Assembly: GCA_913778495.1 (NCBI GenBank)
Contig: CAJYVD010000034.1
Span: 62,001 to 126,000 of the forward strand
Reading direction: 5' to 3'
Length of the DNA: 64,000 bases
Source: an uncultured Pantoea sp.
Lineage (GTDB): Bacteria > Pseudomonadota > Gammaproteobacteria > Enterobacterales > Enterobacteriaceae
The notes beneath the pieces were generated by a model. That model had not been told where the DNA came from. It did not search any database and saw only the letters and a list, made by a program, of their open reading frames with translations. Positions within the stretch are counted from its first letter, which is position 1, and every line of letters begins with the position of its first letter. The position numbers and the translations under genes were made by a program. Shown piece after piece: positions 26,003 through 35,147 of the stretch.

Positions 26003-26710
26003 ATGACCCCGGACAGCCACGATCCCCTGATTCTTGTCGTCGAGGATGAACCCAAATTGGCGCAGCTGATGATGGACTATCTGCAAGCCTCTAACTATCG
26101 CACGCACCATCTTGCCGACGGCAGCGACGTGCTGAGTTATGTGCAGAATACGCCACCTGATTTGATGCTGCTGGACCTGATGTTGCCCGGCCGCGACGGC
26201 CTGACGCTGTGCCGTGAGATCCGCCGCTTTTCCGAGTTGCCCATTATCATGGTCACGGCGCGCACCGAAGAGATTGACCGCCTTCTGGGCCTGGAGATCG
26301 GTGCAGATGACTACATTTGCAAGCCGTTTAGCCCGCGTGAAGTGGTGGCGCGCGTGAAAACCATTCTGCGCCGCGTACGCCGCTCGCCGGAAGAGGCGCA
26401 GCAGGCTTCCCCGCTGATCATCGATGAAGGTCGCTTTCAGGCCAGCTGGCGCGAGCAGCCGCTCGAGCTCACGCCAGCCGAATTTCGCCTGCTGAAGACC
26501 CTGGCGCTGGAGCCTGGCAAGGTGTTTTCACGCGAGCAGCTGCTGAACCACTTGTACGATGACTATCGCGTCGTCACCGATCGCACCATCGACAGCCACA
26601 TTAAAAATCTGCGGCGCAAGCTGGAGAATCTGGATGCCGACCAGCCGTTTATTCGGGCGGTTTACGGCATGGGCTACCGCTGGGAAGCGGATGTCTGCCG
26701 CTTGATCTAG
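26003..26710 (+). CDS. baeR: Envelope-stress response regulator BaeR
   Basis: A 235-residue OmpR-family regulator. The receiver domain has the acidic pocket E14-D15, the phosphorylation site D58 in [10 protein letters not shown], and the conserved Lys in [12 protein letters not shown]. The C-terminal winged helix includes [12 protein letters not shown] and [16 protein letters not shown]. It lies 3 bp after baeS. Phosphorylated BaeR activates the mdt operon and spy in E. coli. The stop is only five bases from a perfect FNR box belonging to the next gene. Confidence 0.97.
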
Positions 26711-26715
26711 CCGCG

Positions 26716-26758
26716 TTGATCGCGATCAATTTACATCGCGCCTGCACCCGCCTACAAT
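26716..26758 (+). promoter_or_regulatory. FNR box and -10 element in front of trhP
   Basis: TTGAT CGCG ATCAA at 26716-26729 matches the FNR consensus TTGAT-N4-ATCAA at all ten conserved bases. TACAAT at 26753-26758 is a good -10; a start site seven bases later (about 26765) puts the box centre at about -42, the class II activation position. No good -35 is present, as expected for an activated promoter. Confidence 0.65.
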
Positions 26759-26771
26759 TCCCCACTTTTTG

Positions 26772-26794
26772 CAGGGCTGTTTACCGCAGCCCTG
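26772..26794 (+). other. Hairpin in the trhP leader
   Basis: CAGGGCTG (26772-26779) pairs perfectly with CAGCCCTG (26787-26794) across a seven-base loop. No T-run follows on the plus strand. It could be the 3' end of the baeR transcript or a leader structure of trhP. Confidence 0.4.
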
Positions 26795-26840
26795 TACGGT
26801 CATCCAGTGACTGCCCGATTTAACAGCCGTGAGACGCCCG

Positions 26841-28196
26841 ATGTGTAAACCCGAACTCCTCTCTCCAGCAGGCTCGCTGAAGAACATGCGCTACGCCTTT
26901 GCCTACGGCGCCGATGCCGTTTACGCCGGCCAGCCGCGCTACAGTTTGCGCGTGCGTAATAATGAATTTACCCACGAGGTGCTGGCGCAGGGCATTGCCG
27001 AGGCGCACGCGCTGGGTAAGAAATTCTATGTGGTGGTGAACATTGCGCCGCATAACGCGAAGTTGAAAACCTTTATTCGCGATTTAGCGCCCGTGGTGGC
27101 GATGCAGCCCGATGCGCTGATCATGTCCGATCCTGGGCTCATTATGCTGGTGCGCGAGGCGTTCCCTGCCATGCCCATTCATCTTTCCGTACAGGCCAAC
27201 GCGGTGAACTGGGCCACGGTGAAATTTTGGCAGCAGAGGGGGCTCACGCGCGTGATCCTCTCGCGCGAGCTGTCGCTAGAGGAAATCGCCGAGATCCGCG
27301 CGCAGGTGCCGGAGATGGAGCTGGAAATTTTCGTGCACGGCGCGTTATGCATGGCCTACTCGGGCCGCTGCCTGCTGTCTGGCTATCTCAACAAGCGCGA
27401 TCCCAACCAGGGCACCTGCACCAACGCCTGCCGCTGGGAATACAAGGTGGCGGAAGGCCAGCAGGACGAACTCGGCAATATCGTGGGCATTCACCAGCCC
27501 GTGGCCGTGCAGCCGCCGACGCTGGGCGTCGGCACGCCCACCGATCGGGTGTTTTTGCTGGAAGAAAAGATGAAGCCGGGCGAGGTCATGAGCGCGTTTG
27601 AAGATGAGCATGGCACCTATATCATGAATTCCAAAGATCTGCGCGCCGTGGCGCACGTAGAGCGCCTGAGCCAAATGGGCGTGCACTCGCTAAAAATAGA
27701 GGGGCGCACCAAGTCCTTTTACTATTGCGCGCGCACCGCGCAGGTGTATCGTCGTGCGATTGATGATGCCGCAGCGGGAAAACCTTTCGACACCACGCTA
27801 CTGGAAACGCTGGAAGGCCTGGCGCATCGCGGCTATACCGAGGGTTTTTTACGTCGCCACACGCATGACAGTTACCAAAACTATAGCCAAGGTTTCTCCG
27901 TGTCTGAGCGGCAGCAGTTTGTCGGTGAATTTACCGGCGAGCGCCGCGGTGACTGGGCGCAAATCGCGGTAAAGAACAAGTTCATGGTGGGCGACGCGGT
28001 GGAGATCATGACGCCCGAGGGCAACCTTAACGCCACGCTGGAGACGCTGCAGAACGATCGCGGCGACGCGGTGCAGATCGCGCCCGGCGACGGGCACCGC
28101 GTTTGGATGCCGGTGCCTGCGTCGGTTGATCTAGCGTATGCCCTGCTGCTACGCAATTTTAACGGCGAAGGCACCACGCAGGCGCCGCGTGGTTGA
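26841..28196 (+). CDS. trhP: tRNA 5-hydroxyuridine modification protein TrhP (YegQ), U32 family
   Basis: A 451-residue U32-family protein (E. coli YegQ 453), nearly collinear with it from MCKPELLSPAGSLKNM onward; ATG 26841 gives the matching start. Conserved Cys residues sit in HGALCMAYSGRCLLSGY and QGTCTNACRWEY, the probable Fe-S ligands. TrhP makes ho5U at position 34 of tRNAs using prephenate and without molecular oxygen, in parallel with the oxygen-dependent TrhO. The perfect FNR box upstream fits a role when oxygen is low. CyaR follows on the same strand, as in E. coli. Confidence 0.94.
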   Translation: MCKPELLSPAGSLKNMRYAFAYGADAVYAGQPRYSLRVRNNEFTHEVLAQGIAEAHALGKKFYVVVNIAPHNAKLKTFIRDLAPVVAMQPDALIMSDPGLIMLVREAFPAMPIHLSVQANAVNWATVKFWQQRGLTRVILSRELSLEEIAEIRAQVPEMELEIFVHGALCMAYSGRCLLSGYLNKRDPNQGTCTNACRWEYKVAEGQQDELGNIVGIHQPVAVQPPTLGVGTPTDRVFLLEEKMKPGEVMSAFEDEHGTYIMNSKDLRAVAHVERLSQMGVHSLKIEGRTKSFYYCARTAQVYRRAIDDAAAGKPFDTTLLETLEGLAHRGYTEGFLRRHTHDSYQNYSQGFSVSERQQFVGEFTGERRGDWAQIAVKNKFMVGDAVEIMTPEGNLNATLETLQNDRGDAVQIAPGDGHRVWMPVPASVDLAYALLLRNFNGEGTTQAPRG

Positions 28197-28269: not shown

Positions 28270-28276
28270 CGCGCCT

Positions 28277-28364
28277 GCTGCTAACGAGTAACAACTAACG
28301 GCAAGTTCTATCAGGAACCACCTCATTCACCCGCTCGGCTCCCCCGTGCGGGTCTTCTTTTTTT
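28277..28364 (+). ncRNA. cyaR: CyaR small regulatory RNA
   Basis: An Hfq-type sRNA of about 88 nt. The core CAGGAACCACCTC (28312-28324) is identical to the conserved single-stranded seed of E. coli CyaR, and the gene lies in the same place, downstream of yegQ and on the same strand. The 3' end is an intrinsic terminator (ACCCGC at 28329-28334 against GCGGGT at 28348-28353, then a T-run at 28358-28364). The 5' part and terminator stem differ from E. coli. CyaR represses ompX, luxS, nadE and yqaE by base pairing near their ribosome sites. Confidence 0.88.
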
Positions 28365-32995: not shown

Positions 32996-33323
32996 TGTCG
33001 TAACAGGCGTTACAGCGGCTCAGCATACGGGAAGGCGCGTAAACCGTGCAAGCCACTTTCGTCGCGCCACGTTGAAGCGGTTGTTGATGGTGTGCGCCGC
33101 CCTTTTTCCCTGTGCCAGGCACATATGACAGCCTGCGTTTAACCGCGCCAGATCAAGGCACAGCCGCTGTTGCCTTGCGGCGTAAAACGCGGAAATTGCG
33201 CTATTCGACGTTGGCAGGGGAAAAAGCGCGCGGCACGGCTGGAAATTGATGCACATCAACGCCGTTAACGCGTTATACGGGCTTAATCCCTGCGGTTTAA
33301 CGCCTTTTCTCGCGGACTGAATA
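32996..33323. other. Intergenic region between the TPP riboswitch and the 67-codon ORF
   Basis: About 330 bp with no convincing gene. It must hold the promoter for the thiD transcript (leftward) and, from 33246, a perfect FNR box facing rightward. Nothing else was recognised. Confidence 0.5.
33246..33287 (+). promoter_or_regulatory. FNR box and -10 element upstream of the 67-codon ORF
   Basis: TTGAT GCAC ATCAA at 33246-33259 is a perfect FNR consensus site. CTTAAT at 33282-33287 is a fair -10; a start at about 33294 puts the site centre at -41.5, the class II position. The next start codon is ATG 33324, leaving a 30-nt leader. Confidence 0.55.
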
Positions 33324-33527
33324 ATGATTTCACGGCTTCTGGCTTTTCTTCCCCACGCCCATCGCTGGCGGATCATGCATATCACGCGCTGCGGCGCGCA
33401 GTTTCCCGGCGGGCGTCAGGGCATGTGCACCGCTGTTCTGGCGCAGTGCACCGGCTGCGGGGTACGACTGCACAAAGTGTTTTATCGCGATATCAGCGAT
33501 GCCCAGGCGCGTCGGTGGTTAGGATAA
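33324..33527 (+). CDS. Small Cys-rich protein of unknown function (possible zinc ribbon)
   Basis: A 67-residue ORF with Cys at 23, 35, 42 and 45, the last two forming CTGC (CxxC), so a metal-binding knuckle is possible. The protein is basic and ends DISDAQARRWLG. The ribosome site is weak (GGA seven bases upstream). A perfect FNR box with a fitting -10 lies just upstream, and the stop codon runs into the shared hairpin region after ahpF, which together support a real transcription unit. I do not recognise the family. Confidence 0.55.
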   Translation: MISRLLAFLPHAHRWRIMHITRCGAQFPGGRQGMCTAVLAQCTGCGVRLHKVFYRDISDAQARRWLG

Positions 33528-33578: not shown

Positions 33579-35147
33579 TTATTCAGCCGGCTTGGTGCGG
33601 ATCAGGTAATCAAAGGCGCTCAGGGAGGCTTTCGCACCTTCACCGCTGGCAATGATAATCTGCTTGTACGGGACCGTGGTGCAGTCGCCTGCCGCGAATA
33701 CCCCTTTCAGGCTGGTTTCGCATTTGGCGTCAATGATCACTTCGCCCATTTTGTTCAGCTCCACCGCGCCTTCCAGGAAACCGGTGTTCGGCAGCAATCC
33801 AATTTGCACAAAGATGCCGCTCAGGGCGATGTCATGGCTGGTTTGGTTAGTACGGTCAATGTAGCTCAGCCCCGTGACTTTGCTGCCGTCGCCTTTGACT
33901 TCGGTGGTTTGTGCATTGAGGATCACATCCACGTTTTTCAGGCTGCGCAGTTTATCCTGCAGCACTTTGTCGGCACGCATTTCGCCCGCGAACTCCAGCA
34001 GCGTAACGTGCTCAACGATACCCGCGAGATCGATGGCCGCTTCGACGCCGGAGTTACCGCCGCCGATGACTGCCGTACGCTTGCCCTTAAACAACGGACC
34101 GTCGCAGTGTGGGCAATAGGTCACGCCCTTGGTGCGATACTGCTCTTCGCCCGGGACGCCCATGTTGCGCCAGCGCGCACCGGTGGCAATGATGATGCTG
34201 CGCGATTTCAACACCGCACCCGACGCGGTTTCAAGCGCGTGTAAACCGCCCGCTTTAGCCGCTGGAATCAGTTTGATGGCGCTCTGGGTATCAATCACGT
34301 CCACGTTGTAATCTTCCACGTGCGCACGGAGGGAACCCGCCAGCTTCGCACCTTCTGTTTTCGGCACGGAGATGTAGTTTTCGATGTCGACGGTGTCCAG
34401 TACCTGTCCGCCGAAGCGCTCGCCCATCAAACCGGTGCGAATGCCTTTACGCGCCGAGTAAATGGCCGCAGCCGCACCTGCCGGGCCGCTGCCGACGATC
34501 AGTACGTCGTAGGCCGCGCGTTTGTTCAACTCTTCTGCGGCGCGCTTCTCGGCGTTGGTGTCGACTTTACCGACGATCTCGGCGAGGCTCATACGGCCCT
34601 GACCAAACTCTTTACCGTTGAGGTAGACCGCCGGCACGCCCATCACGTTACGTTCGGTGATCTCATGCTGGAACATGCCGCCGTCGATGGCCGTGTGGCT
34701 GATGCGCGGGTTGAGGATCGCCATCAGGTTCAGCGCCTGCACGACATCCGGGCAGTTATGGCACGACAGCGAATAATACGTTTCAAAGTGCAGATCGCTG
34801 TCCAGCGCGGCCACTTGCTCCAGCAGACTTTGCGCTTCTTTAGAGGGATGCCCACCGGTCTGCAGCAGCGCCAGCACCAGTGAGGTAAATTCGTGGCCCA
34901 TTGGGGAACCCGCAAAGCGCGGCCCGCCGTTGCGGCCAGGGTTGGTAATCAGAAAAGAGGGTTTACGCACCGGACGATCGTTCTCTTCGCGGAAGCTGAC
35001 TTTTTCTGACAGGCTGGCGATGTCGGTCAGCAGCGTGCGAATCTCAGTAGATTTGGCGCTGTCGTCCAGCGTAGCAATCAACTCAACCGGTTTTGTTAAT
35101 TTCTCAAGGTAGGCCTTGAGCTGCGTTTTTAAATTGGTGTCGAGCAT
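33579..35147 (-). CDS. ahpF: Alkyl hydroperoxide reductase subunit F
   Basis: A 522-residue flavoprotein (E. coli 521). The N-terminal double thioredoxin fold carries C129 and C132 (CHNC); after a linker, the thioredoxin-reductase-like part has the FAD motif [13 protein letters not shown] at 218-230 and the redox pair C345/C348 (CPHC). Electrons pass from NADH through FAD and both Cys pairs to AhpC. It is 70 bp downstream of ahpC with a hairpin between them, and ends in a strong terminator. Confidence 0.97.

Follow-up and report, generated by a model that had tools for sequence, protein, structure and literature searches.

The stretch at 26716-26758 between baeR and trhP (yegQ) in an uncultured Pantoea genome very probably serves trhP as a sigma-70 promoter that FNR activates from a class II position, as judged from its sequence. 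This reading draws on sequence, spacing, a phylogenetic footprint, the presence of FNR, TrhP and TrhO, and the co-occurrence of the box with TrhO; from these we infer that FNR occupies the site and induces trhP anaerobically, as well as any effect on tRNA.

A candidate FNR promoter upstream of trhP

The window, the whole 64,000-nucleotide stretch that was analysed (C34:62001-126000), belongs to an assembly of 4.09 Mb that is 93% complete. The gene order at the locus is baeS, baeR, trhP, a CyaR-like small RNA and a yegS-like open reading frame (ORF), the last of which, 3' of the small RNA, we take by eye to be yegS. TrhP scored 827.6 bits against NCBIfam NF011996 (cut-off 534), and its closest named relative among the matches listed is that of Pantoea sp. 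Mb-10, at 97% identity. We set the trhP start at ATG 26841, the start of most orthologues fetched; the ORF tool offered an alternative GTG at 26829, 12 nt upstream. The CyaR-like small RNA (28275-28359, 3' of trhP) scored 40.8 in Rfam, below the gathering score of 47, and its counterpart in a relative (L068) scored 48.7, above it.

Table 1. Features of the baeR-trhP region, in window coordinates
Feature	Position	Strand	Basis or remark
baeR, response regulator	26003..26710	+	NCBIfam NF007982, 441.4 bits, cut-off 380
baeR stop codon TAG	26708-26710	+	5 nt before box
FNR box TTGATCGCGATCAA, perfect palindrome	26716-26729	+	sequence; genus conservation
-35 hexamer TTTACA, no gap after box	26730-26735	+	sequence; promoter scan
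-10 hexamer TACAAT	26753-26758	+	sequence; promoter scan; predicted +1 ~26765
Predicted trhP mRNA leader	26765..26840	+	hairpins 26770-26796, 26797-26813
CTGCCCGATTTAACAG, remnant of slot holding CTGACCTGNNATCAG in relatives	26811..26826	+	matched by eye
trhP (yegQ), prephenate-dependent tRNA uridine-34 hydroxylase, 451 aa	26841..28196	+	NCBIfam NF011996

An earlier note on this DNA had described a perfect box, TTGAT CGCG ATCAA, five bases past the baeR stop, followed by TACAAT at class II spacing, and both are present (Table 1). The box ends 23 nt before the -10 hexamer, which places its centre at about -42.5 with the predicted +1 at 26765, or at -41.5 if the start is one base earlier; the class II activator position of CRP/FNR proteins is stated in the accessible text of PMC8561392. 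Absent from that description was the -35 hexamer, which is near consensus, the TTTACA-17-TACAAT pair (26730-26758) matching at 10/12 positions in the promoter scan, so that some FNR-independent transcription is likely. The box agrees perfectly with TTGAT-N4-ATCAA.

The window has two perfect copies of TTGATNNNNATCAA; 60 first-order Markov shuffles averaged 0.05 copies and never had more than 1. This excess, together with the genus footprint described below, led us to reject a chance origin of the box. With up to one mismatch allowed, the window holds four matches against a mean of 1.47, a number reached by 7/100 shuffles; this excess is slight, and the functional case therefore rests on conservation rather than on counts. 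The second perfect box in the window, TTGATGCACATCAA (33246-33259), is without a clear target: it lies about 320 bp past the stop of an ahpF-like gene (33579-35147, minus strand, taken by eye to be ahpF), inside a 121-aa minus-strand ORF (33020-33385) whose reality is doubtful.

The whole assembly has 12 perfect boxes, six of them without an ORF of more than 400 bp across them. Five of these six precede a chemotaxis-receptor-like gene, ompW, adhE, an old-yellow-enzyme-like gene and trhP, and the sixth is the box past the ahpF-like gene. At a seventh site, next to an Ndh-like gene, the only ORF running across has 144 codons, and the other five lie inside longer ORFs or inside one of 135 codons (L006). 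The ompW match is above the NCBIfam cut-off and the adhE match is truncated; the chemotaxis-receptor-like, old-yellow-enzyme-like and Ndh-like matches are below their cut-offs, the last gene presumably being ndh from the reading of its N-terminus. Because FNR regulates adhE, ompW and ndh in E. coli, the simple pattern seems to find FNR promoters in this genome.

Conservation of box and promoter within the genus

The earlier note had staked its proposal on conservation of the site in close relatives, and the site is conserved. We found trhP or its remains in 58/60 genus genomes, the source genome included, and the resulting 58 upstream regions (L013, the source genome; L043-L072; L099-L125) carry a box with at most one core mismatch in 56 cases (39 perfect, 17 with one mismatch and 2 with two). 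The two-mismatch boxes are TTGATCTGACGCAA (L119) and TTGATCTAGCGCAA (L120). In L125, from a reduced genome of 2.4 Mb (G072), trhP is broken and the -10 is unrecognisable, with the box still perfect; this locus was left out of the spacing counts, which leaves 57 loci with a promoter (38 perfect boxes, 17 with one mismatch, 2 with two).

We searched for the -10 hexamer 20-26 nt after the box end and found it at 23 nt in 44/57 promoters and at 22 nt in the other 13. The distance from the baeR stop to the box start takes the values -9, 1, 5, 7, 8, 9 or 16 in the 56 loci measured. With the distance to the -10 near-fixed and that to baeR drifting, box plus promoter appear to be the unit that is held constant. 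The -10 reads TACAAT in 50 of the 57 promoters, TAAAAT in 6 and TATAAT in 1, and a -35 of TTTACT, TTTACA or TTTACC stands at a 17-nt spacer in 44/57. Across 38 unique rows, the ten arm columns of the box average about 1.8 bits (nine at 1.7-2.0, and an A of the right half at 0.83), and the 15 columns upstream of the box lie at 0.06-0.96 bits with a mean of 0.4; the rows were located by their box match, which somewhat inflates the arm values, and all loci with a promoter were retained. At two loci (L099 and L102) an insertion in the leader has apparently moved the intact box and promoter away from trhP, by about 150-210 bp compared with relatives.

This footprint bears on two other accounts of the palindrome. 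It might be conserved for another cause (the end of baeR, Dam sites or a DNA structure, for example), in front of a constitutive promoter: in 7/56 measured loci there is a 9-nt overlap between box and baeR stop (TTG ATC TAG ATCAA type), the window box contains two GATC sequences, and the promoter looks strong without an activator. We consider this very unlikely because the distance of the box is fixed to the -10 and not to baeR, 15/57 genus boxes have a GGTCAA form that breaks one GATC, and boxes with the same core recur at class I spacing in other genera. A box merely riding on the coding end of baeR was likewise rejected as an explanation, since the spacing follows the -10, while remaining a possible origin. 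The last baeR codons and stop (TTG ATC TAG), plus a few substitutions, may have given rise to the FNR box; to judge from the outlier forms TTGATCTGACGCAA and TTGATCTAGCGCAA, two substitutions after the end of baeR would complete it. The TTGATCTAGCGCAA form also occurs in a Mixta locus (L246), and a further entry, L250, with TTGATCTGACGCAA, is to judge by length and place the same contig as L119.

Alternatively, another protein of the CRP/FNR family, most plausibly CRP, could own the box, in which case control would answer carbon source rather than oxygen. CRP and FNR sites have GAT...ATC in common, and the genome encodes one HTH_Crp_2 match above the cut-off besides FNR, probably CRP given that the protein beside it looks, as we read it, like YhfK. 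CRP requires TGTGA, however, and the conserved arms TTGAT/ATCAA, with T at box position 1 in 97% and at position 2 in 100% of the 38 unique rows, do not fit it, so we rejected a CRP site at trhP; only these two matches pass the HTH_Crp_2 family cut-off, and we regard ownership by any relative of FNR as highly improbable.

Boxes at trhP outside the genus

Across other enterics, where the earlier note had suggested looking, the outcome was divided: the box recurs in Yersinia, Serratia, Pectobacterium, Samsonia and a further family (f2), and it is absent in E. coli. Among the other-genus loci of the family, 5/35 have a box, at a distance from the -10 of 50 nt in four of them and 25 nt in the fifth. 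Named loci, the best 80 among the matches listed, gave a box in 9 of the 61 that lie outside Erwiniaceae, against a mean of 0.5 and a maximum of 3 in 100 shuffles of those loci; among those listed, Pectobacterium has it in 4/4, Yersinia in 2/2, Samsonia in 1/1 and Serratia in 2/5. In all nine the box precedes the -10 by 50-53 nt, which puts it at about -70 to -73, close to where class I sites lie. One locus (L288) has a second copy of the box at 71 nt before the -10.

Loci of the order outside the family (105, omitting eight lower-scoring or partial matches: G120, G135, G145, G224, G231, G239, G244 and G257) have a box in 21 cases, compared with a shuffle mean of 2.1 and a maximum of 6. Ten of these boxes are 22 nt before the -10, nine of the ten making up all of family f2 (9/9), each with its first base mismatched; three are at 50-54 nt, and the remaining eight, some of which may be chance matches, are at other distances or lack a recognisable -10. 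Outside the order, 0/29 loci had a box; these loci came from a set of 56 matching genomes, in some of which the match is to a paralogue only. That the box recurs in separate lineages, and at two geometries, speaks for selection for FNR input.

A promoter of the TTTACT-17-TACAAT type is common, with the box absent, at many Enterobacteriaceae loci. Among the named loci listed, no box with up to one mismatch was present at trhP of E. coli, Klebsiella, Citrobacter or Kosakonia; the E. coli MG1655 trhP region has the promoter and yielded no FNR box, and trhP of the best-scoring other genus (L014) is also without a box of up to one mismatch. FNR control is thus dispensable, trhP being kept without the box in E. 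coli, Klebsiella, Citrobacter and L014, and the case of E. coli means that it is not a general enteric rule.

The two geometries also bear on whether FNR might bind here and repress trhP, or have little effect. In favour of this, bound FNR could overlap part of the neighbouring -35 hexamer. Against it, -41.5/-42.5 is where activator sites are classically centred, the alternative placement in other genera (about -70 to -73) comes close to that of class I activators, and repressing FNR sites are usually over the -10, over the +1 or far upstream. We therefore hold a repressing or neutral FNR to be very improbable, and favour activation.

Oxygen and the two hydroxylation routes

The regulator and both enzymes are encoded in the source genome. 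Over 250 aa its FNR, read from L294, shares 92% identity with that of E. coli, and Cys16/20/23/29, Cys122 and the ETISR stretch are all retained. TrhO is encoded as well as TrhP, so that both hydroxylation routes are present, and a TrhO domain was found in 59/60 genus genomes, the exception being 74% complete. In the order outside the family, TrhO is present in 20/21 box-positive and in 37/84 box-negative trhP genomes, absence being scored by exclusion from the complete list of 86 genomes with a match (Fisher p = 1.2e-5 with kinship ignored; 9 of the 20 are from family f2). By family the contrast is small: four families have more than one box, all with TrhO. The one box-positive genome without TrhO (L080) has its box 186 nt from the start and belongs to a family otherwise without boxes.

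TrhO requires O2 and TrhP does not (PMC6599085, accessible text), as the earlier note had also said. According to the same text, wild-type E. coli shows no anaerobic loss of cmo5U, so induction is not needed in that box-less species. Taken with the good -35, this leads us to read the box as an anaerobic booster and not a strict switch; FNR more likely raises a basal level of trhP than turns the gene on from zero. Of the original proposal, FNR control is supported by genus conservation and the near-fixed spacing to the -10; a turn-on from zero is less likely, given the -35, and the switch of route is more conjectural.

At low oxygen, a [4Fe-4S] FNR dimer would bind the palindrome beside the -35 and recruit RNA polymerase, yielding more TrhP, and the O2-independent, prephenate-using route would keep U34 hydroxylated when TrhO cannot work. 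With oxygen present, the near-consensus -35 and -10 would give a basal level of trhP. In this way the cell may switch its modification route with oxygen.

An anticodon-arm-like hairpin in trhP leaders

The window leader folds with z = -2.67 (26765-26845, against 200 shuffles); we dropped its hairpin at 26770-26796 as an anticodon mimic because the fold closes the loop to 5 nt. A different element, CTGA-N7-TCAG, is found in the trhP leaders of 141 of 201 order loci (L013-L213, 58 of them from the genus), adjacent to the ribosome-binding site; it begins 24-37 nt ahead of the start codon. It takes the form CTGA-YYTGNNN-TCAG in 140 of the 201, and one more has the same stem with a different loop. 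Loop base three is T in 141/141 and base four is G in 140/141; base five is A in 107, T in 26, C in 8 and G in none. The reverse orientation occurred in 0 of the 201 loci. As RNA, the motif gives a stem of 4-5 bp and a 7-nt loop carrying U34-G35-N36, and the MG1655 leader folds as a 7-nt-loop hairpin (L301, just before trhP at 2169).

The leader stem is that of tRNA-Thr(UGU), CTGACTTGTAATCAG, in five stretches with that tRNA, and CTGACTTGAAATCAG, present in some leaders, is the tRNA-Ser(UGA) arm in two other stretches; both are cmo5U34 tRNAs. Among the matches listed, from 45 order genomes, seven of the eight stretches fetched are tRNA-Thr(UGU) or tRNA-Ser(UGA) genes, and we accordingly rejected the idea that the leader sequence is simply a common motif. 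The eighth stretch (L303) has an identical 15-mer and a long minus-strand ORF that we take to encode a phage tail protein. The stem is invariant in all 141 leaders, and because it hardly varies, support from covariation is thin. Rfam gave no hit at the trhP leader, either up to E = 5 in 11 loci or up to E = 1 in the window.

Within the genus, the CTGACCTGNNATCAG hairpin is present in 56/58 leaders and absent only in the source genome (L013) and its sister (L043), which appear to have lost it (Table 1). CTGACTTGTAATCAG is absent from the source assembly (G000), so its tRNA-Thr(UGU) gene either falls in an assembly gap or is different. Outside the family, the motif occurs at all loci of f2 (9), f9 (8), f13 (4), f21 (8), f25 (8) and f27 (7), also in f5, f11 and f23 and in 1/8 of f12, and in none of f3, f4, f6, f7, f10, f14, f16, f17, f20, f22 and f26. 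Genus f19 (4/4) has another stem, TAGT/ACTG, with loop CTTGTAA, 53-61 nt before the start. With f19 counted, the motif outside the family is commoner without TrhO (34/48) than with it (19/57), which makes it a matter separate from the oxygen box. A similar element was found in 1/29 loci outside the order: TAGA-CCTGCAA-TCTG, 29 nt before the start in L315, a possible anticodon-arm mimic with a different stem and UGC in the loop.

By analogy, the leader hairpin possibly serves autogenous translational control by TrhP through substrate mimicry. In the E. coli thrS operator, the mRNA leader imitates the anticodon arm of a tRNA, and the trhP leaders of many relatives likewise have a hairpin resembling an anticodon arm immediately 5' of the ribosome-binding site; here, however, the likely reader would be a tRNA-modifying enzyme and not a synthetase, and the hairpin is lost in the window species. 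Tentatively, and with slightly less than even confidence, we propose control at two levels, FNR acting on transcription and a substrate copy in the leader, of which the window species would have kept the first and lost the second. The FNR operator would repeatedly have appeared, or changed place, in lineages that possess TrhO as well. The leader would copy the TrhP substrate, the anticodon stem-loop of U34-G35 tRNAs, with the stem of tRNA-Thr(UGU), and free TrhP would bind it and stop translation when unmodified tRNA is scarce.

Relation to known systems

The trhP promoter resembles enteric FNR class II promoters in its consensus box, a centre at about -41.5/-42.5, a sigma-70 -10 and an FNR encoded in the same genome. 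It differs in its -35, which is better than usual, class II promoters usually having a poorer one than trhP, and in that we found no mention of trhP as an FNR target in the open-access literature searched. That literature (subscription papers and regulon databases lie outside it) yielded, among the entries listed, neither an FNR link to trhP/yegQ, in agreement with the view that the link is undescribed, nor leader control of trhP. The link is absent from the accessible text of PMC6599085, PMC2908626, PMC10470549, PMC3688515, PMC8561392 and PMC12300143, and yegQ is not named in the accessible main text of the E. coli FNR ChIP-seq paper (PMC3688515).

The nearest parallel is E. coli ubiUV/ubiT, genes of O2-independent ubiquinone hydroxylation under FNR, which activates ubiUV; UbiU and UbiV belong to the U32 superfamily, and the distance from the F1 site to the mapped start downstream is 36 nt (PMC10470549, accessible text). 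As proposed for trhP, an O2-independent route is raised by FNR there while O2-dependent enzymes coexist, and the U32 superfamily is shared. The substrate differs, a ubiquinone precursor and not tRNA, and the E. coli F1 and F2 sites, as given in that text, fit the consensus less well than the trhP box.

E. coli trhO is activated by IscR from a type II site, a kind acting mainly aerobically (PMC8561392, accessible text). This is likewise oxygen-linked control, exerted on the other U34 hydroxylation route, through another regulator and another gene. Before trhO of the present genome, the best IscR type II matches have 2 mismatches and lie 146 and 283 nt upstream, and we do not claim such a site. 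In alpha-proteobacteria, a predicted DNR regulon holds a 'peptidase U32 family' gene, RSP0465 (PMC2908626, accessible text), a case similar in its U32-family gene and predicted FNR-type regulator and different in the regulator itself and the bacterial class. By locus number its neighbour in that text is a lipid carrier protein, and we infer that RSP0465 is UbiU, not TrhP.

Biological meaning

In kind, trhP would be a new candidate target of a well-known regulator, FNR. Two chemically different routes, one of them needing O2, make the same wobble-base modification, and an FNR box on the O2-independent gene, beside the IscR control of trhO in E. coli, would make the choice of route oxygen-regulated. 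The leader hairpin is a less expected lead than the FNR box: if it binds TrhP, a tRNA-modifying enzyme would gauge its own substrate through an mRNA mimic.
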